Under the pieces are notes generated by a model. That model was not told the DNA's origin. It ran no database searches and saw only the letters and a program-made list of their open reading frames with translations. DNA of 64,000 nt from assembly GCF_006539725.1 (NCBI RefSeq), contig NZ_BJNO01000003.1:186001-250000 (forward strand). The letters are read 5' to 3'. The translations under genes were made by a program, and so were the position numbers. Source of the DNA: Klebsiella terrigena (GTDB taxonomy: Bacteria; Pseudomonadota; Gammaproteobacteria; Enterobacterales; Enterobacteriaceae). Of the stretch, positions 3,924-45,549 are shown piece after piece. Every line of letters begins with the position of its first letter. The first letter of the stretch is position 1.

Positions 3924-4856
3924 ATGCGGGTATTACTGGCGCCGATGGAAGGCGTGCTCGATTCGCTGGTGCGCGAGCTGCTGACCGAAGTCAACGATTA
4001 CGATCTGTGCATCACCGAATTTTTGCGCGTGGTGGACCAGCTGCTGCCGGCGAAATCGTTCTACCGACTCTGCCCGGAGCTGCATCACCACAGCCGGACG
4101 CCTTCCGGAACCCGCGTGCGCGTGCAGCTGCTCGGGCAGTATCCGCAGTGGCTGGCGGAGAACGCCGCCCGGGCGGTGGAGCTCGGCTCGTGGGGCGTTG
4201 ACCTGAACTGCGGCTGCCCGTCTAAGCTGGTTAACGGCAGCGGCGGTGGCGCGACGCTGCTGAAGGATCCGGAGCTGATTTATCGCGGCGCGAAGGCCAT
4301 GCGTGAAGCGGTCCCAGACCACCTGCCGGTGACGGTAAAAGTGCGCCTCGGCTGGGACAGCGGCGAGCGGCGGTTTGAAATTGCCGACGCCGTACAGCAG
4401 GCGGGCGCCAGCGAGCTGGTGGTTCACGGACGCACCAAAGAAGAGGGCTACAGGGCGGAGAGCATCAACTGGCAGGCGATCGGCGAGATCCGCCGCCGTC
4501 TGACGATCCCGGTGGTGGCCAACGGCGAAATCTGGGACTGGCAGAGCGCGCAGGCGTGCCTGGCGGCCACCGGCTGCGACTCGGTGATGATCGGTCGGGG
4601 AGCGCTGAACGTGCCGAACTTAAGCCGGGTGATAAAATATAACGAACCGCGCATGCCGTGGCCGCAGGTCGTGCTGCTGCTGCAAAAATATACCCGTCTG
4701 GAAAAGCAGGGCGATACCGGCCTCTATCACGTGGCCCGCATCAAGCAGTGGCTCAGCTATTTACGTAAAGAATATACCGAAGCGCTGGGGGTATTTAATG
4801 AGATCCGTACCCTAAAAACCTCTGCCGAAATTGCCGCGGCTATCGCCCGTTATTAA
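3924..4856 (+). CDS. dusC: tRNA-dihydrouridine(16) synthase
   Basis: FMN-dependent enzyme that reduces uridine 16 of tRNA to dihydrouridine. The 310-residue protein starts [13 protein letters not shown], as in E. coli DusC, and keeps the TIM-barrel landmarks: the catalytic-cysteine motif NCGCPS (Cys98), [14 protein letters not shown] near 170 and ANGEIWD. The frame is open far upstream into mhbM, but homology points to the ATG at 3924; an ATG four codons earlier (3912) is possible. No good ribosome binding site is visible and the start sits almost on the mhb terminator, so the promoter must lie within or upstream of that hairpin. The C-terminal 20 residues differ from E. coli. Confidence 0.93.
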
Positions 4857-4865
4857 TCTCAGGAG

Positions 4866-4881
4866 TGTTAATTGGCTCACA
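4866..4881 (+). promoter_or_regulatory. Putative CRP site upstream of the beta-glucoside operon
   Basis: TGTTA-N6-TCACA matches the CRP consensus TGTGA-N6-TCACA in 9 of 10 core positions. It begins 9 bases after the dusC stop, in the only promoter space available to the porin-bgl operon. A weak promoter candidate (TTGATG at 4905, TGATAT at 4929) follows. Beta-glucoside operons are typically CRP-activated; binding here is inferred. Confidence 0.5.
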
Positions 4882-4953
4882 GATTATTACTTAGGAAGTT
4901 CCTGTTGATGGGAATTTCATTAAGGGAGTGATATTGTGCCGTTCTAATATTCA

Positions 4954-5026
4954 GGGTTGCTACTGATTACAGGCAAAACCTAAGCACTTCCGCCAGTCGT
5001 GGTGGGGAGTGCTTAGGTTTTTTTTT
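4954..5026 (+). promoter_or_regulatory. RAT antiterminator site plus terminator 1 (before porin)
   Basis: A BglG-family ribonucleic antiterminator target (4954-4980, GGGTTGCTACTG then ACAGGCAAAACC) overlaps the left arm of an intrinsic terminator: 13-bp perfect stem (4976-4988 with 5008-5020) and a run of nine T. The two structures share the AAACC bases and are mutually exclusive, the standard design of BglG/LicT/SacY switches. Bound antiterminator would allow reading into the porin gene. The rest of the dusC-porin gap (5027-5213) is AT-rich and shows no further element I can name. Confidence 0.88.
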
Positions 5027-5213
5027 GCCTTCAATTTATGGAGATTTTAGTTATTAAATAAAACAATGAGTTGTAAATAAAGGTGCGATGCGGCTAAGCG
5101 GTTTAATGACCGACAACGCCCTTTTCTCCAAAAATAAAAAAATAAAATAAAAACGGGCAACTTTATTGCCTGCGGACAGCTATTACCTTTACTCAGTCAG
5201 GTTGGATATATCT

Positions 5214-6578
5214 ATGAACGACAAAAAAATAAATCGCCTGTTCTCTCTGCTGGCATTTTCACTATTGACGCCGGCGGCGTTGGCTGCCGAAACGCCGGCG
5301 TGGAACGGTAGCGTATTAGGTTTTGAAAACCCGCAAAAAGGGCTGCTGGGTGATATGGCAGGCATTCGCCCAATACTTACCGATCTGGGATTTAATTATA
5401 ACCTCGGCTATCTCAATGAAATGGGCTATAACGCCGGCGGCGGCTATAACCATGATAAGCATCTGGCCTATATCGACCAGCTGGCGCTGACCTTTAACCA
5501 GGATCTTGAGCGCTGGACCGGGATCCCCGATGCGCGCATCGAAGGGAATATCGTCAACCGTAATCACGACGACAATCTGACCACCAGGCGGCTGCAGGAT
5601 CCGCGGGTTAACTTTAACGATCTCTCCCAGGAGAGCTGGGGCGGGCAGTCCATCACCCGCCTCGGCTGGCTCACCTTCGCCCGCAGCTTTGACGACCGGC
5701 GCCTGACCTGGCGAATCGGCATGATGAACAAAGTGCAGACGTTCGATCAGATCATTCCCTGCGACTTCCAGCTGCTCTCGCAGTGCGGCGGTAAATCCGC
5801 CAACTCGCTGACGTGGAATAACTGGAACGTGCATACCTGGGGGACCACCTTCGAATATAAGCTGATGCCGATGCTCACCCTGAAGGGCGGGGTGATGGAG
5901 CAGAACCCGCAGGCCGCTTCCCGCAGCCACGCGTGGAGCTGGTCGACGAAGGGCAGTAAAGGCGTGCTGCTGCCGCTGGAAATTGAGGCTCGTCCGATGA
6001 TTAACGACCTGCCTGGCGCCTATAACCTCGGCGTGCTGTTCACCAACGCGCCGCAGAGCGATCTCTATTACGGCAAATCCGGCGGCCCCGGCGCGACGGA
6101 CCCCGACGGCTATGCTCAGCATAACCGGACCTGGTTCCTGTACGGCGGGCTCAACCAGCAGGTCACCCGGCACGCCGACGATCCTGAGCGCGGCATGAGC
6201 CTGTCGCTGAGCGGCAGCTACAGCGACCAGCGCAGCAACTATATCCATACCGCCGTGGCCGCCTCGATGCGCTATCGCGGCCTGTTTGACGCCCGACCGG
6301 CGGACTGGATCGGCTTTGGCCTGACCTGGATGGATATGAGCGACAGCTACGCCCGCAATCAGCGCTATATGAACCAAATCAGCGGGGCCACGAACGACTA
6401 CGATGCCAGCTATCAGCCGGTGGCCGGGCATTCGCTGAACGCCGAACTCTACTATCGCTTCCGCCCGATTTCCTGGCTTGAGCTGCAGCCAGGCCTGCAG
6501 TACTGGCACCGTCCCGGCGGCATCGCCGAGACCCAGGATGCGTGGGTTGTGGAGTGGAAGACGGTGGTCACTTTCTAA
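5214..6578 (+). CDS. OprB-type carbohydrate-selective porin
   Basis: Outer-membrane channel expected to admit beta-glucosides. The 454-residue precursor from the ATG at 5214 has a clear signal peptide (MNDKKINR, hydrophobic core, cleavage after AALA before AETP). The mature part has the aromatic-rich alternating pattern of a beta-barrel, with motifs typical of OprB porins (GWLTFARSFDDRRLTWRIG, WNVHTWGTTFEY, a C-terminal EWKTVVTF ending in Phe). The frame is open 16 codons upstream, but those residues would precede the signal peptide and are unlikely to be translated. It stands first in the operon with its own RAT/terminator. In E. coli bgl the porin BglH is last and of the LamB type, so both position and family differ here. 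Confidence 0.85.
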   Translation: MNDKKINRLFSLLAFSLLTPAALAAETPAWNGSVLGFENPQKGLLGDMAGIRPILTDLGFNYNLGYLNEMGYNAGGGYNHDKHLAYIDQLALTFNQDLERWTGIPDARIEGNIVNRNHDDNLTTRRLQDPRVNFNDLSQESWGGQSITRLGWLTFARSFDDRRLTWRIGMMNKVQTFDQIIPCDFQLLSQCGGKSANSLTWNNWNVHTWGTTFEYKLMPMLTLKGGVMEQNPQAASRSHAWSWSTKGSKGVLLPLEIEARPMINDLPGAYNLGVLFTNAPQSDLYYGKSGGPGATDPDGYAQHNRTWFLYGGLNQQVTRHADDPERGMSLSLSGSYSDQRSNYIHTAVAASMRYRGLFDARPADWIGFGLTWMDMSDSYARNQRYMNQISGATNDYDASYQPVAGHSLNAELYYRFRPISWLELQPGLQYWHRPGGIAETQDAWVVEWKTVVTF

Positions 6579-6675
6579 AAAACGCCGCGGCGATACGCTG
6601 TTAGCCGCGATCTGTATCACGTTTTTTTGCCTGGGTAGTTGAGACAAAGAAAGAAGTTGCTACAGTGCTGGAGTT

Positions 6676-7589
<914 letters not shown>

Positions 7590-7608
7590 CCTCCAGCGAC
7601 CAAAAATT

Positions 7609-7678
7609 GGATTGTTACTGCATAACGCAGGCAAAACCTGAGCGCGACGCCATCCGGCGTTGTTCTCGGGTTTTTTTT
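7609..7678 (+). promoter_or_regulatory. RAT antiterminator site plus terminator 3 (before bglF)
   Basis: The RAT at 7609-7638 (GGATTGTTACTGCATAACG then CAGGCAAAACC) is nearly identical to the E. coli bgl target. It overlaps a terminator whose outer stem pairs 7634-7642 with 7665-7673 (one G-T wobble), has an inner stem GACGCC/GGCGTT, and ends in a long T run. It lies in the bglG-bglF gap, as in E. coli. Confidence 0.9.
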
Positions 7679-7686
7679 TATTTTAA

Positions 7687-11004
<3,318 letters not shown>

Positions 11005-37686: not shown

Positions 37687-38619
37687 ATGGATAACATGAC
37701 CGAACCCTGGCAGCGGCTGCCCGCGCTTTCTCTTAAGCAGCTCCAGTATTTTGTTACCCTGGCGCAGCTGCGTCACTTTACCGATACCGCCAACCGGCTG
37801 GCCATCAGCCAACCGGCGCTGAGCAGCGCGCTGCGCCAGGTTGAAGCGGTGCTCGGCGGCAGGCTGGTGAACCGCACCGCCTCTTCGGTCACGCTGACCG
37901 AACTGGGCGCGGCGATCCTGCCCCACGCGCAGCGCGTGCTGAGCGTGGCCCAGCTGGCGTTTCAGGATATGCAGCAGATTGTTGAAGCCGGCGGCGACGG
38001 CACGGTGCGCATCGGCCTGATGCCGTCGGTCAGCTCGCTGCTTTTTCCCCTGCTGCCGCAGACCCTGGCCGAAACCTTTCCGCGCCTGCGGGTCGAGTTT
38101 CACGATCGGGCCAACGACGCGCTGGTGCGCGAGCTGCTGAGCGGGCAGATTGATTTCGCCGTGGGCGCCATCGACAGTTCGATCCCCGCAGAGCTGCAGG
38201 TCTATCCGCTGCGCGAGGACCCGTTTGTGGCGGTGCTGCACGGCGACGATCCGCTCGCCGGTCAGCCGCATCTGCCGTGGAAGCTGCTGGCTGGCCGCGA
38301 TATCGCGGTGTTCTCGAAGGGCAATATCCAGCGGCTGGTGGGGGCGCTGGCGGAGAGCCATCGCCTGATGCTGAATACGCGCTATCAGGTGGACTATATC
38401 GAAACGCTGTATGGCCTGGTGCGCTCGCGCCTGGCGATAGCCATTCTTCCCGAGCTCTATACCACCCACTTATGCGATCCGCAGCTGAAGATAGCCCAGC
38501 TGCAGCAGCCAGCGCTGAGCCGCACCGTGGCGCTGATGCGCGGGCCGCAGACGCTACCGCCGCTGATTGAGTCGAGCTTCGCGTTGCTGCTGAGTTCGCT
38601 GCGGGAAGTGAATCCCTGA
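37687..38619 (+). CDS. LysR-family regulator divergent from ade
   Basis: The 310-residue regulator has an N-terminal HTH (LKQLQYFVTLAQLRHFTDTANRLAISQPALSSALRQVEAVLGGRLVNR, about 14-62) and an effector domain. It is close to the CynR/CbbR-like group. A divergent position relative to ade-permease is the usual layout for a LysR activator of that operon, so it is the best local candidate. ATG 37687 is used; a second ATG three codons later is equally possible, and neither has a strong ribosome binding site. A GCAGGTGC/GCACCTGC hairpin (38653-38675) follows the gene. Confidence 0.85.
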   Translation: MDNMTEPWQRLPALSLKQLQYFVTLAQLRHFTDTANRLAISQPALSSALRQVEAVLGGRLVNRTASSVTLTELGAAILPHAQRVLSVAQLAFQDMQQIVEAGGDGTVRIGLMPSVSSLLFPLLPQTLAETFPRLRVEFHDRANDALVRELLSGQIDFAVGAIDSSIPAELQVYPLREDPFVAVLHGDDPLAGQPHLPWKLLAGRDIAVFSKGNIQRLVGALAESHRLMLNTRYQVDYIETLYGLVRSRLAIAILPELYTTHLCDPQLKIAQLQQPALSRTVALMRGPQTLPPLIESSFALLLSSLREVNP

Positions 38620-38889: not shown

Positions 38890-40866
38890 TTACGGAGTAA
38901 CGATATTGAACCAGAACTCAAACTTGTCCATGTAGCTCAGCATTTCGTCCAGCTTCGCAGCATTACCGGTAATTTTCACCTCACCCTGATCAACCGCCTG
39001 CTTCAGCGTCTCTTGCTTGAGGATAATCTTGTTCAGCGTATCGCGATCGAGGGTGATGTTGGCATCCGCGTTGTCGGCGACCGCGTTGGCGGTGTGGTTC
39101 AGGACGCCGTTTTCCAGCTCCAGCTTGTACTTGCCGCCGTCTTTACCCAGATCGACGTTGAGAATCGCCTTCGCCGCGCCGGCTTTTTCGCCGTTAATAT
39201 GCACGCCCAGGTAGTCGAAGAACATTTCCGGGGTCATCGCGCGGACGGTATCCGGGCTGGCGGTGTTCGGCGTTGGCAGCTTCTGCACGCCGTTACGCAG
39301 CTCCTGCGCGCCGGTGAGGTAGAAGTTACGCCAGGTGCCGGCTTCCGCCTGGTAGCCCAGCTGCTCCAGCGCATCCGCTTCGAGGTTCCGCGCGTCCTGG
39401 TTTTGCGGGTCGGCGAACACCACTTTGCTGGTGACCTGCGCCACCCAGCGATAGTTACCCTGGCGGTAATCCTCTTTGGCTTTGCTCAGGATATTGCCGG
39501 CGCCGCCCATATATTCGACAAACTTCTTCGCAGCCTGCTCGGGCGGCAGCTCGTCGAGGGTAGCCGGGTTGCCGTCGAACCAGCCGAGATAGTACACGTA
39601 GGTGGCCTTGACGTTGTGGCTGACGGAACCGTAGTAGCCCCGGCTTGACCACTGCTTCTCCAGCGCTTCCGGCAGCTTGAAGTTAGCGGCAATTTCGTCG
39701 CGGGTCAGGCCTTCGTTAGCCATGCGCAGGGTCTGGTCGTTGATATAGCGATACATGTCGCGCTGGCCTTTCATCAGCTTAACAATGTTGTCGTTGCCCC
39801 AGGTCGGCCAGTGGTGCTGTGCGATAATCACGTCGGCGTCGCTGCCCCAGCGGTCGATGGCGGCGTTGATATATTTCGACCACGCCAGCGGATCGCGGAT
39901 TTTTGCGCCGCGCAGGGAGTAGGTGTTGTGCAGCGTGTGGGTCACGTCTTCCGCCGCTTCGATCATTTTCTTCTCTTTGACGTACCACAGCATTTCCGAC
40001 GGGGCCTCAGAGCCCGGCGCCATCATGAAATCGTAGGTCAGGCCATCAATCACCTCTTCCTGCCCGGTTTTAGTGATGTAGTTTGTCGGCTGGATCAGCG
40101 TAACGGTACCGGCGGAGGTGGTGGTACCCAGACCCGCGCCAACCTGACCTTTCGCGTCGGGCTTGAGCAGGTTGCCGTACATATAGCTGGCGCGGCGGCT
40201 CATCGCCGTACCGGCCATGATATTTTCCGAAACCGCTTCTTTCATAAAGCCGTCCGGCGCGTAGATTTTGACTTTGCCCGACTTCACGTCGGCTTCGTCA
40301 ACCACGCCGCGAATGCCGCCGTAGTGGTCAACGTGGCTGTGGGTGAACAGCACCGCGACCACCGGCTTCTTGCCGCGATTGGCGTAGTAGAGGTCCAGCC
40401 CCTCTTTGGCCGGTTCGGCGCTCAGCAGCGGATCGATGATGGTAATGCCTTTATCACCTTCGATAATGGTCATGTTGGAGAGGTCGAGGTTGCGAATCTG
40501 GTAAACGCCGTCGGTGACCTTGAACAGACCGCCGATATTAATCAGCTGGGACTGGCGCCACAGGCTAGGGTTAACGCTATCCGGAGACTTTTGGCCTTCT
40601 TTAACGAAGTCGTATTTCGCCGGATCCCAAATAACGTTGCCCTGTTCGCCTTTAATCATGCTCGACGGCAGCGCGGCGATGAAGCCTTTATGCGCGTTTT
40701 CAAAATCGGTTTTATCGGCAAACGGCAGCTTGTTGTACAGCGCGCTATTGGCCTGACGGGTGGCAGGCGTCGCATCGTTCGGCTGAACCTGCGCAAAAGC
40801 GGAAGCGGACAGCGAAACCAGAACACCGGCCATCGCCAGGTGTTTAGCAATCTGATTTAATTTCAT
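38890..40866 (-). CDS. Exported alkyl/aryl-sulfatase, SdsA1/YjcS type (copy 1)
   Basis: Predicted periplasmic zinc hydrolase of primary alkyl sulfates such as SDS. The 658-residue precursor has a signal peptide (cleavage near SAFA-QVQ), a metallo-beta-lactamase domain with the THSHVDHYGG motif (His176, His178, Asp180, His181), a central helical dimerisation domain, and a C-terminal SCP2-like domain (NVDLGKDGGKYKLELENGVL, about 560-658). This is the domain order of Pseudomonas SdsA1. AGAGGT precedes the ATG. The enzyme is nearly the twin of the gene at 41754-43730. A single upstream gap of 211 bp separates it from a divergent regulator. Confidence 0.9.
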   Translation of the reverse strand: MKLNQIAKHLAMAGVLVSLSASAFAQVQPNDATPATRQANSALYNKLPFADKTDFENAHKGFIAALPSSMIKGEQGNVIWDPAKYDFVKEGQKSPDSVNPSLWRQSQLINIGGLFKVTDGVYQIRNLDLSNMTIIEGDKGITIIDPLLSAEPAKEGLDLYYANRGKKPVVAVLFTHSHVDHYGGIRGVVDEADVKSGKVKIYAPDGFMKEAVSENIMAGTAMSRRASYMYGNLLKPDAKGQVGAGLGTTTSAGTVTLIQPTNYITKTGQEEVIDGLTYDFMMAPGSEAPSEMLWYVKEKKMIEAAEDVTHTLHNTYSLRGAKIRDPLAWSKYINAAIDRWGSDADVIIAQHHWPTWGNDNIVKLMKGQRDMYRYINDQTLRMANEGLTRDEIAANFKLPEALEKQWSSRGYYGSVSHNVKATYVYYLGWFDGNPATLDELPPEQAAKKFVEYMGGAGNILSKAKEDYRQGNYRWVAQVTSKVVFADPQNQDARNLEADALEQLGYQAEAGTWRNFYLTGAQELRNGVQKLPTPNTASPDTVRAMTPEMFFDYLGVHINGEKAGAAKAILNVDLGKDGGKYKLELENGVLNHTANAVADNADANITLDRDTLNKIILKQETLKQAVDQGEVKITGNAAKLDEMLSYMDKFEFWFNIVTP

Positions 40867-40974
40867 TAAATGACCTCTTAGATTATTTGAGCCGAAATCA
40901 ATAATAAATATGATACGGCTAATGCAAATGCGGACTCATTACCGGCTATTGTAAGTGGAATAGATGGCGTTAAT

Positions 40975-40990
40975 AGTCCCATATGGGACT
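40975..40990. promoter_or_regulatory. 16-bp perfect palindrome between alkylsulfatase 1 and its divergent regulator
   Basis: AGTCCCATATGGGACT is a perfect palindrome. It sits 109 bases before the sulfatase start and 88 bases before the regulator start, in the shared promoter region, and is a strong candidate operator. Confidence 0.6.
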
Positions 40991-41077
40991 GCCTGGAAAA
41001 TAACAACGGTAGGCCTCGAATCCACGCCGGACTCGCTGCTATACTGAGCTTACGGCAGAATGGAGTGAGGGCATGCG

Positions 41078-41713
41078 GTGAATTTTCAGGAAATACACGG
41101 CTATTACAGCACGTTAGAGATTGATAGCTATCTGGATGAAATCATTCAGGAAGGCGAGGTCGTTTCGTTGCCTGCCAATAAAAAATTAGAAGTCAAGGCT
41201 GGCTATATTTATTTTTGTACTGGCGGTTCTTTATCAATATTAATGCCGGAGAACGGTCTTAATATCGGGAATAGCATTGAGCATATGCCGATTGGCCTAA
41301 TGGAAAGATACTGCCCGCTGGCTAAGTTTGAATATATGGGAAGCGCGCCGGTCAGGCTTATTAAAATATCCTATGAGGCGTTTGACCGTATCTTTATCCA
41401 AAATAATCCGCAGCGCGTGCAGGAGCTGGCGACGATTCTGGTGTATATGACTATTTTCACCATCGACCTGCATAACGAGCGTCGGCAGCTGACCAGCTAC
41501 CAGACCATCCGGCCGATGCTGTTTCGCTATCTCTACCGGCAGAATACGCATGAGGGTGAAAATGAAGGCCTGGCGCTGTTTATCATCAAGCGAACCAATC
41601 TTTCGCGGACCCACGTTTTCCGGGTGCTTGCCGACCTCAAGGCCGGGGGCTACATCACGATGGCAAGAGGAAAGCTGGTGTCTATCGACCGGGCGCTGCC
41701 CGAGGAGTATTAG
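41078..41713 (+). CDS. IprA/YaiV-like winged-helix regulator
   Basis: 211-residue cytoplasmic protein with a cyclic-nucleotide-binding-like N-terminal barrel (about 15-120) and a C-terminal helix-turn-helix (about 170-205, IIKRTNLSRTHVFRVLADLKAGGYITMARGKLVSIDR). The end closely follows E. coli YaiV/IprA (GKLISINRLPSEY), and the whole resembles the Crp/Fnr fold without the cAMP-binding signature. The start is GTG at 41078 behind GGAGTGAGGG. An ATG-CGG-TGA mini-frame overlaps this start. It lies between, and probably regulates, the two alkylsulfatase genes. Base composition is more AT-rich than its neighbours. Confidence 0.75.
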   Translation: MNFQEIHGYYSTLEIDSYLDEIIQEGEVVSLPANKKLEVKAGYIYFCTGGSLSILMPENGLNIGNSIEHMPIGLMERYCPLAKFEYMGSAPVRLIKISYEAFDRIFIQNNPQRVQELATILVYMTIFTIDLHNERRQLTSYQTIRPMLFRYLYRQNTHEGENEGLALFIIKRTNLSRTHVFRVLADLKAGGYITMARGKLVSIDRALPEEY

Positions 41714-41722
41714 CGCAGAGAA

Positions 41723-41748
41723 ACCCCGCGACCGGAGGCCGCGGGGGT
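41723..41748. terminator. Shared GC-rich hairpin between regulator and alkylsulfatase 2
   Basis: CCCCGCG (41724-41730) pairs with CGCGGGG (41740-41746). The loop ACCGGAGGC resembles that of the alkylsulfatase 1 terminator. Only short A/T flanks are present, and it probably serves both converging genes. Confidence 0.6.
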
Positions 41749-41753
41749 GAGGT

Positions 41754-43730
41754 TTATGGCGTCACAATGTTGAACCAGAACTCGAACTTGTCCATGTAGC
41801 CCAGCATTTCATCCAGCTTCGCCCCGTTACCGGTGACCTTCACTTCACCCTTATCTTCAGCCTGTTTCAGCGTTTCTTCTTTCAGGATGATTTTGTTCAG
41901 GGTCGCACGGTCCAGCACGATAGTGGCATCCGCATCTTTCGCTTCGGCCTTAGCGGTGTGGTTCAGCACGCCGTTTTCCAGCTCCAGCTTATACTTGCCG
42001 CCGTCGTTGCCGAGGTCGATGTTGAAGACCGCTTTGGCTTTACCGGCTTTCTCACCGTTGATGTGTACCGCCAGATAGTCAAAGAACATTTCCGGGGTCA
42101 TCGCGCGGACGGTATCCGGGCTGGCGGTGTTCGGCGTCGGGCCTTTCACCACGCCGTTGCGCAGCTCCTGCGCGCCGGTGAGGTAGAAGTTGCGCCACGG
42201 ACCGGATTCAGCCTGGTAACCCAGCTGCTCCAGGGCATCCGCTTCCAGATTACGCGCCTCCTGGTTTTTCGGGTCGGCGAAGACGATTTTGCTCACCACC
42301 TGGGCTACCCAGCGGTAGTTACCCTGGTCATAGTCCTCTTTGGCCTTCTTCATGATGGCGTCGGCGCCGCCCATGTAATCAACAAACTTTTTAGCCGCTT
42401 CTTCCGGCGGCAGTTCGTCGAGGGTGGCCGGGTTGCCGTCAAACCAGCCGAGGTACAGCACGTAGGTGGCCTTCACGTCGTGGCTGACGGAACCGTAGTA
42501 GCCGCGGTTGGCCCAGGTGTGCGCCAGACTGTCCGGCAGCTTGAATTTGGCGGCAATTTCGTCGCGGGTCAGCCCTTCGTTAGCCATGCGCAGGGTCTGG
42601 TCGTTGATGTAACGATAGAGGTCACGCTGGCTCTTCAGCAGGTTGACGACGTTTTCGTTGCCCCAGGTCGGCCAGTGGTGCTGAGCCATGATGATCTCAG
42701 CTTTGTCGCCCCAGCGAACGATCGCTTCGTTGATATATTTCGACCACGGCAGCGGCTCGCGGATTTTGGCCCCGCGCAGGGAGTAGGTGTTGTGCAGGGT
42801 ATGGGTGACGTCTTCCGCCGCTTCGATGAGCTTCTTCTCTTCGATATACCACAGCATTTCAGACGGTGCTTCAGAGCCCGGCGCCAGCATAAAATCATAG
42901 GTCAGGCCGTCGATAACCTCTTTCTGGCCGTCTTTTTCAATGATGTTGGTCGGAGCAATCAGGGTCACGGTACCGGCGGAGGTGGTGGTCCCCAGCCCAG
43001 CGCCTACCTGGCCGGTAGCTTCCGGCTTCAGCAGGTTGCCGTACATATAGCTGGCGCGACGGCTCATGACGTTACCGGCCATGATGTTTTCCGCCACGGC
43101 GGCTTCCATAAAGCCGGCCGGCGCATAGACTTTCACTTTGCCCGACTTCACGTCGGCTTCATCAATGACGCCGCGCACGCCGCCGTAGTGGTCAACGTGG
43201 CTGTGGGTGTAGATAACGGCCACCACCGGCTTCTTGCCACGGTTTTTGTAGTACAGGTCCATGCCCACTTTCGCGGTTTCAGCGGATACCAGCGGGTCAA
43301 CGACGGTAATGCCTTCTTTACCTTCGATGATGGTCATGTTGGAGAGATCGAGGTTGCGGATCTGATAGACGCCTTCGGTCACTTCAAACAGGCCGCTGAT
43401 GTTAATCAGCTGAGACTGACGCCACAGGCTCGGGTTGACGGTATCCGGCGCCTTTTCCCCTTCTTTGATGAAGGCGTACTGCTGAGGATTCCAGACGACG
43501 TTGCCCTGTTCGCCTTTGATGACATCGCCAGGCAGAGCGGCAATAAAGCCTTTATGCGCGTTGCTAAAATCGGTGTTGTCGGAGAAGGGCAGCTGGTTGT
43601 AAAGGGCATCGTTTGCCTGTTTGGTGGCGGCGGTCGCTTCTTTGGGGGAGGTATCAGCCCAGGCGGAAAGGGCAAAGGTCGATAGCACCCCGGCTAACGC
43701 CATTCCCTTTACTATTGGTGTCAATTTCAT
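41754..43730 (-). CDS. Exported alkyl/aryl-sulfatase, SdsA1/YjcS type (copy 2)
   Basis: 658-residue paralogue of the gene at 38890-40866, with about four in five residues identical by eye and no alignment gaps noticed. It has its own signal peptide (MKLTPIVKGMALAGVLSTFALSAWA), the same THSHVDHYGG metal site at 176-181, and the same C-terminal SCP2-like domain. ATG 43730 is preferred because it gives the signal peptide and has GAGG upstream; the frame is open 30 codons further. Differences cluster in the signal peptide and the C-terminal domain (for example GPTPNTAS against LPTPNTAS). It has its own promoter region with different cis elements, so the copies may be expressed under different conditions. 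Confidence 0.9.
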   Translation of the reverse strand: MKLTPIVKGMALAGVLSTFALSAWADTSPKEATAATKQANDALYNQLPFSDNTDFSNAHKGFIAALPGDVIKGEQGNVVWNPQQYAFIKEGEKAPDTVNPSLWRQSQLINISGLFEVTEGVYQIRNLDLSNMTIIEGKEGITVVDPLVSAETAKVGMDLYYKNRGKKPVVAVIYTHSHVDHYGGVRGVIDEADVKSGKVKVYAPAGFMEAAVAENIMAGNVMSRRASYMYGNLLKPEATGQVGAGLGTTTSAGTVTLIAPTNIIEKDGQKEVIDGLTYDFMLAPGSEAPSEMLWYIEEKKLIEAAEDVTHTLHNTYSLRGAKIREPLPWSKYINEAIVRWGDKAEIIMAQHHWPTWGNENVVNLLKSQRDLYRYINDQTLRMANEGLTRDEIAAKFKLPDSLAHTWANRGYYGSVSHDVKATYVLYLGWFDGNPATLDELPPEEAAKKFVDYMGGADAIMKKAKEDYDQGNYRWVAQVVSKIVFADPKNQEARNLEADALEQLGYQAESGPWRNFYLTGAQELRNGVVKGPTPNTASPDTVRAMTPEMFFDYLAVHINGEKAGKAKAVFNIDLGNDGGKYKLELENGVLNHTAKAEAKDADATIVLDRATLNKIILKEETLKQAEDKGEVKVTGNGAKLDEMLGYMDKFEFWFNIVTP

Positions 43731-43809: not shown

Positions 43810-43837
43810 ACTATAACCACTTGTTTACATTGATCAA
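43810..43837 (-). promoter_or_regulatory. Predicted sigma-70 promoter for alkylsulfatase 2
   Basis: On the minus strand, TTGATC (43832-43837) and TATAGT (43810-43815) are spaced by 16 bases, about 80 bases before the ATG. The rest of the gap to 44137 is AT-rich. It holds a 33-codon open frame (MSLLLQRTRFLSGG..., starting near 43996) and a doubled ATAGTGAC (near 44053 and 44073), neither of which I can assign. Confidence 0.5.
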
Positions 43838-45207: not shown

Positions 45208-45549
45208 ATGAAGAGATTAACTATTCTACCTTTAGTTTTCCTTCTTTCCGGTTGCCCTGGCGGTAATCCTGCACCACACCCCAGAACGACATTTATCAAT
45301 GGCGAACATCTTTGTTTCAGTGAAGATAATAAAGATGTATTGAACTATTACACTATTGATACAAGTGAAAACGGTAAAATAGGAACAGTGGTTAGCTCTG
45401 GTTATAATAAATTAAATTCTTCTTATCCGGATAATTGTATCAATGTGAAATGGAAGAATAATCACACCTATGCGATCAACTATGGGTTAAATAATAAAAA
45501 ATATGTTCATGAATTTTTTATTGACGGCAATGGAAAGTTAACCAAATAA
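45208..45549 (+). CDS. Putative T6SS immunity-type periplasmic lipoprotein
   Basis: 113-residue precursor with a lipoprotein signal and lipobox LLSGC (Cys16) followed by PGG. The mature part is a small Asn/Lys-rich beta domain with two further cysteines (EHLCFSE and DNCINVKW). This pattern (GCPG after the lipobox, a Cys pair, about 110 residues, AT-rich) is that of the group annotated in Klebsiella and relatives as putative T6SS immunity periplasmic lipoproteins. No T6SS effector or structural gene is adjacent, so it would be an orphan immunity gene. The call rests on pattern memory, not a search. Confidence 0.55.
   Translation: MKRLTILPLVFLLSGCPGGNPAPHPRTTFINGEHLCFSEDNKDVLNYYTIDTSENGKIGTVVSSGYNKLNSSYPDNCINVKWKNNHTYAINYGLNNKKYVHEFFIDGNGKLTK

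Follow-up and report, generated by a model that had tools for sequence, protein, structure and literature searches.

A predicted Crp-type regulator paired with one of two adjacent alkylsulfatase genes in Klebsiella terrigena

We analyzed a 64,000-nucleotide stretch of the Klebsiella terrigena genome (contig NZ_BJNO01000003.1, positions 186,001 to 250,000; hereafter the window) in which a small regulator gene lies between two alkylsulfatase genes, A and B. We believe that the regulator likely activates A alone, by way of a palindrome in front of A, and that B runs independently; judging from the sequence comparisons below, we put the probability of this at roughly 0.7. The locus would then likely be a conserved two-gene unit of an activator and its target, beside an independent paralog.

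Both sulfatase genes are on the minus strand, A at 38890-40866 and B at 41754-43730, and each encodes 658 amino acids. The regulator gene (41078-41713, 211 amino acids, GTG start) is on the plus strand, so that it is divergent from A, with 211 bp between the genes, and convergent with B, with 40 bp. An earlier, sequence-only reading of the window had described two exported alkylsulfatases of equal length on one strand with a regulator gene between them, and the open reading frames and Pfam domains confirm this. It also called the two copies very highly similar. The identity is 80.1% for DNA and 80.4% for protein, lower than that wording suggests.

Each protein starts with what we judged by eye to be a Sec-type signal peptide and is predicted to be exported. 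Both have the Pfam domains Alkyl_sulf_dimr, Alkyl_sulf_C, Lactamase_B and SCP2 (PF00753, PF14863, PF14864 and PF02036), each scoring above the cut-off, which is the domain set of S3 sulfatases. The HxHxDH zinc motif and the other ligands (H176, H178, D180, H181, E287, E306 and H351) are invariant in all 74 aligned relatives, and with a numbering shift of +7 we take them to be the ligand positions of SdsA1. Fifteen residues are clade-specific and would be predictors of any difference between A and B in the alkyl sulfates that they prefer. From these features we infer that A and B would cleave alkyl sulfates in the periplasm.

The candidate operator and the two promoters

The candidate operator, AGTCCCATATGGGACT, is a perfect 16-bp palindrome at 40975-40990 and thus has no strand. 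Its center is at -41.5 for A if we have assigned the -10 element correctly (TACAAT, 40948-40953, minus strand, 21 nt from the palindrome). We compared 24 promoters of A-type genes: the -10-like hexamer begins 21 nt from the palindrome in 18 and 22 nt from it in six, and these promoters do not have a recognizable -35 (the best candidates match 1-4 of 6 positions). When the start of A is taken from the -10-like hexamer, both the spacing and the poor -35 fit a class II promoter. On the other side, the regulator gene has an extended -10-like element, TGCTATACT, at 41037-41045 on the plus strand. While the distance from the palindrome to the -10 of A is fixed, the distance to the regulator's element varies from 38 to about 69 nt between loci.

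AGTCCCATATGGGACT occurs exactly only once in this genome, and there is one further place at two mismatches. It is present with 0-2 mismatches in all 19 orthologous loci from named genomes, which span several enterobacterial genera, 95-142 bp upstream of the regulator, and the 194,477 bases of these 19 loci contain no other place with three or fewer mismatches. Allowing two mismatches, we found the site in 14 of 15 regulator-bearing genomes versus one of 15 that are regulator-free.

B is different. The 400 bp upstream of B contain no site with fewer than five mismatches to the palindrome, and what is conserved there is a promoter block unrelated to it. This block (GGTTATA.., from an alignment of B-type genes) includes a -10-like TATAGT at 43810-43815, with a -35-like TTGATC, read from the sequence, at 43832-43837, 16 nt away and also on the minus strand. 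A loose form of the block is matched in 24 of 31 B-type genes, not all at the same position. Among sulfatases that are not A-type and have enough upstream DNA, 56 of 57 have no match to the palindrome better than five mismatches. The exception is L029, a 42% identical alkylsulfatase from G007, which carries the regulator as well; here AATCCCATTTGGGACT lies 107 bp before the ATG (L184, 5149-5164). This is suggestive of a possible second member of the regulon; we found it after the fact, and the best -10-like hexamer there is not at 21 nt.

Because the -10 of A is 21-22 nt from the palindrome, which puts the palindrome near the -41.5 class II position, and because the regulator has a predicted Crp fold (described below), activation of A alone is the most likely role of the regulator. 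In the mechanism that we propose, the regulator would form a Crp-type dimer, would likely bind 40975-40990 and, once bound, would activate transcription of A from -41.5 rather than repress it. Its signal would be a ligand or state that is connected with sulfate esters. B would be transcribed from its own unrelated promoter without the regulator, making A the inducible enzyme and B probably the more constantly expressed one, by analogy with P2 and P1 of Pseudomonas C12B.

Pairing and ancestry of the three genes

In a scan of 20 genomes of the genus, the regulator was present in the same seven genomes as A. Searching 295 genomes of the family, we found 12 with a regulator match of at least 49% identity, and ten of these have a head-to-head sulfatase. 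A scan of named genomes yielded 23 loci. Nineteen are at 54% identity or more, and all but one of them (L129) have the head-to-head sulfatase; the remaining four are paralogs at 44-48% identity, none of which has one. For 17 of the 19, ade, LysR and thiM were absent from the 5 kb that we fetched. Beyond the Klebsiella group, A and the regulator are found together in different surroundings, so the two genes behave as one unit, with B as its neighbor in a few species. The distance matrices of the regulator and A correlate with r of 0.93 (Mantel p 0.0002).

In the window the three genes are flanked by a permease-adenine deaminase-LysR group and by thiM-thiD. We considered the adjacent LysR gene as a regulator of the sulfatases and disfavor it, as it remains with ade where A is absent. 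L129 has lost the head-to-head sulfatase and retains the regulator and operator; its record (G274:C11) is titled Chryseobacterium, although the locus looks enterobacterial.

The trees place A and B apart. In a tree of 76 proteins (three of 79 distinct sulfatases were removed, two because they were distant and one because it was truncated), all 22 sulfatases that are head-to-head with the regulator are on one side of a branch with an SH-aLRT support of 88 by a quick method. B is in a different and larger group, alongside genes from regulator-free genomes and plasmids. For a second tree, we removed the distant outgroups L027 and L029 and added a complete protein from G083 and the fragment L123; here one branch with a support of 89 separates all 24 regulator-linked sulfatases from 52 others. 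In these trees, every sulfatase head-to-head with this regulator is thus in clade A, and no other sulfatase is. Both clades cover several genera, and because of this we conclude that A and B are two old paralogs in one place and do not stem from a local duplication.

Within the genus, seven of the 20 genomes have an A-type gene, ten have a B-type gene and six have both; the B-type gene of G018 has an in-frame stop, and G002 has only a remnant of B. G009, G014, G019 and K. aerogenes have A, the regulator and B at the same chromosomal place, while in G004, G017 and G018 the corresponding place is occupied by B alone. In G007, A and the regulator are beside ade-LysR, and B is elsewhere in the genome. 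The A-regulator pair may have been inserted beside B, or it may have been lost from some species.

The nonsynonymous (dN) and synonymous (dS) divergence between A and B, which the sequence-only reading had proposed to count, is 0.127 and 0.757. Compared with K. aerogenes, both genes are under purifying selection by NG86 (dN 0.042 and dS 0.853 for A, dN 0.033 and dS 0.746 for B). The different promoters, together with this selection, make differential expression the likely reason for having two genes. That reading had explained the pair as a duplicated enzyme kept for differential expression; the second half of the idea looks likely, and the duplication does not, given the age of the clades. 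Its observation that the upstream DNA differs between the copies is right, with the palindrome at A and the unrelated conserved block at B, and the involvement of a local regulator, one not yet named, appears to be right as well. The statement that alkylsulfatase genes are usually single does not fit the counts above. A survey for the three-gene unit had been suggested as well, and it turned up the set in five of the 20 genomes, so it is not a feature of a single isolate and a recent, unselected duplication confined to single isolates is ruled out.

We rejected two further ideas about the origin of the locus. The signal for gene conversion between A and B is weak, patchy and inseparable from base composition. 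As for a mobile plasmid unit, no plasmid record had 80% or more query coverage, and the fullest match, LR134127, looks chromosomal: this record (LR134127.1, L089) is labeled plasmid 7 of K. aerogenes and carries metG, thiM and fbaB. Its sulfatases are identical to those of G001, one of the genomes of the genus. Megablast gave zero matches in 20,395 E. coli records. Elsewhere in the K. terrigena genome, 119 C-terminal residues are left of a third alkylsulfatase, and this remnant shares 87% identity with B (L149, G000:C6:118000-130000, 5506-5862). Close to B, at 45208-45549 of the window, there is a gene for a putative type VI secretion system immunity periplasmic lipoprotein (NF045617, 76.5 bits).

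The regulator family and other sulfatase loci

The regulator matches HTH_46 (PF15977) with 53.2 bits against a cut-off of 29.3. Its predicted structure has a beta-roll, a long dimer helix and a winged helix in one chain, which places it in the Crp/Fnr superfamily, and the Crp/Fnr-type fold is predicted across its full length. It had been assigned to the IprA family, and this we can rule out. The IprA equivalog NF008810 scores 37.1 bits against a cut-off of 359 and matches the final 73 residues only, there is a separate IprA-type gene in the same genome (L187), and IprA is on the opposite side of the regulator tree (built without one of 39 intended regulators, L211, which has an internal stop). 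On this comparison, the regulator is a member of a separate HTH_46 subfamily. We also looked at the conserved Cys79 as a branch-specific sensor and rejected it, as Cys79 is found in other HTH_46 branches too.

There are five HTH_46 genes in this genome. One paralog, on contig C18, is head-to-head with a PF00884 arylsulfatase-type gene that is followed by a radical-SAM maturase-type gene (L189, G000:C18:94000-104000, 4475-8472), and AGTCCCTTAAGAGACT lies between the paralog and the arylsulfatase gene. If at most one mismatch is allowed among its ten fixed bases, the pattern AGTCC-N6-GGACT is present in all five such divergons that we examined (G000, G001 twice, G002 and G007) and in two of 57 control upstream regions. 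A -10-like hexamer is 29 nt from the site in all five, so the promoter layout is unlike that of A. In the regulator tree, the alkyl-linked and aryl-linked regulators form separate groups, so HTH_46 regulators may have been recruited to sulfatases on more than one occasion. An operator code common to this little-studied family of regulators is likely from the shared pattern. It is conceivable, and we offer it tentatively, that the pattern marks a Crp-fold, IprA-like HTH_46 family acting as a private switch of sulfatases with two unrelated folds, zinc alkylsulfatases and formylglycine (FGly)-type arylsulfatases, which would amount to an enterobacterial sulfate-ester regulon with its own signal beside the known sulfur regulators. 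Work by Murooka in 1990 reportedly found the K. aerogenes arylsulfatase to be regulated by sulfur and tyramine.

HTH_46 genes also occur in other settings. Paralogs in L186, L203 and L205 are head-to-head with a PfkB-type kinase, and the L186 intergenic region has an AGTCC-N6-GGAGT site (one mismatch). Related sites accompany HTH_46 paralogs beside DUF1254 proteins. Another HTH_46 lineage, in L135-L138 and the plasmid locus L161, is near a further (third) type of alkylsulfatase; L135 and L161 have an outer-membrane beta-barrel gene too, and L161 also has a FadL-type transporter annotation.

Alternatives and known systems

Several observations weigh against activation of A alone. An operator over the -35 region could also serve a repressor, and at the arylsulfatase loci the 29-nt distance puts the center near -49.5, which is not the class II position. 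Two regulator-bearing genomes, G274 and G102, do not have the head-to-head sulfatase; G274 (the same locus as L129) retains the operator, while G102 has neither a sulfatase nor a site at two or fewer mismatches. The correlation between the regulator and A distances is also expected from shared species history, and the support of 88-89 for clade A is moderate, under the tool's 95 mark. Finally, a reversed-pattern control gave 0-2 matches per genome, so other scattered operator-like sites are at chance level; we dropped those on C17 of this genome, in G037, in G059 and the two in G205 for this reason.

The regulator might instead repress A by sitting on the palindrome until a sulfate ester or related signal releases it. 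The palindrome overlaps the expected -35 location of A, and divergent repressor-target pairs are common. However, A promoters with such poor -35 matches would be weak if there were no activator, and the constant spacing to the -10, along with the Crp fold, suits class II activation better, so we consider repression unlikely. A further alternative, in which the regulator uses the palindrome for its own promoter alone and A is a passenger, seems to us quite improbable: the site does keep within 95-142 bp of the regulator start, paralogs carry related sites at similar distances, and L129 (somewhat in favor) has the regulator and site without the sulfatase, but it is the -10 of A, not that of the regulator, whose distance is constant.

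The sequence-only reading had one regulator controlling both flanking genes, and the A-regulator-B order in five genomes of the genus is what one would expect of that. Against it, the operator and the head-to-head position belong to A only, whereas B is convergent with the regulator, has no comparable site, is common in regulator-free genomes and stands at the same place without A or the regulator in G004, G017 and G018. We give joint control very little credence. A recent tandem duplication in Klebsiella we regard as next to excluded. The equal length, shared strand and adjacency of A and B invite the idea, and their dS is no larger than the dS between species, but this low dS may partly reflect base composition or patchy gene conversion, and the trees contradict a recent duplication: the A-type genes found in Enterobacter, Kluyvera and other genera are nearer to A than B is.

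If the regulator does activate A alone, an unnamed gene becomes a switch that can be tested: its DNA site is defined, and one locus contains both a gene that it should act on and a gene that it should leave alone. The palindrome would be the first candidate operator for a branch of HTH_46/IprA-like proteins; we found none for this branch in the parts of the open-licence literature available to us. It also ties the control of alkylsulfatases to that of arylsulfatases, and it is relevant to how Klebsiella and related bacteria break down surfactants.

As enzymes, A and B resemble SdsA1, PSdsA and YjcS (S3), with which they share the three domains as well as the HxHxDH zinc motif. The best sequence match of A in the PDB, 7tl5, scores 1317 bits with A and is less close to B, at 1195 bits, and both proteins are closer to PSdsA (4nur, 993 bits for A and 1016 for B) than to E. 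coli YjcS (4pdx, 687 bits for each). Unlike in those systems, two distinct subclades are adjacent here and one of them has a private divergent regulator. Pseudomonas SdsA1 also has a dedicated regulator next to it, SdsB1, which is LysR-type, whereas the neighbor here is an HTH_46/Crp-fold protein, and the LysR gene in the window (37687-38619) faces adenine deaminase. With IprA (YaiV), the regulator has the HTH_46 winged helix in common, and its last 48 residues are 52% identical to the IprA-type protein that K. terrigena also encodes, but the neighboring genes differ.

A divergent local Crp-type switch is an already known kind of arrangement. The predicted fold, the 16-bp 5-6-5 dyad and, if the -10 of A is assigned correctly, the center near -41.5 are shared with Crp/Fnr class II activators, while the half-site AGTCC/GGACT is unlike those of CRP (TGTGA) or FNR (TTGAT). 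The closest parallel for the proposed division of labor comes from Pseudomonas C12B, where enzyme work distinguished two alkyl sulfatases, and here the corresponding roles are suggested by the promoters of two adjacent genes. P1 of C12B is described as constitutive and P2 as inducible (PMC3920027).

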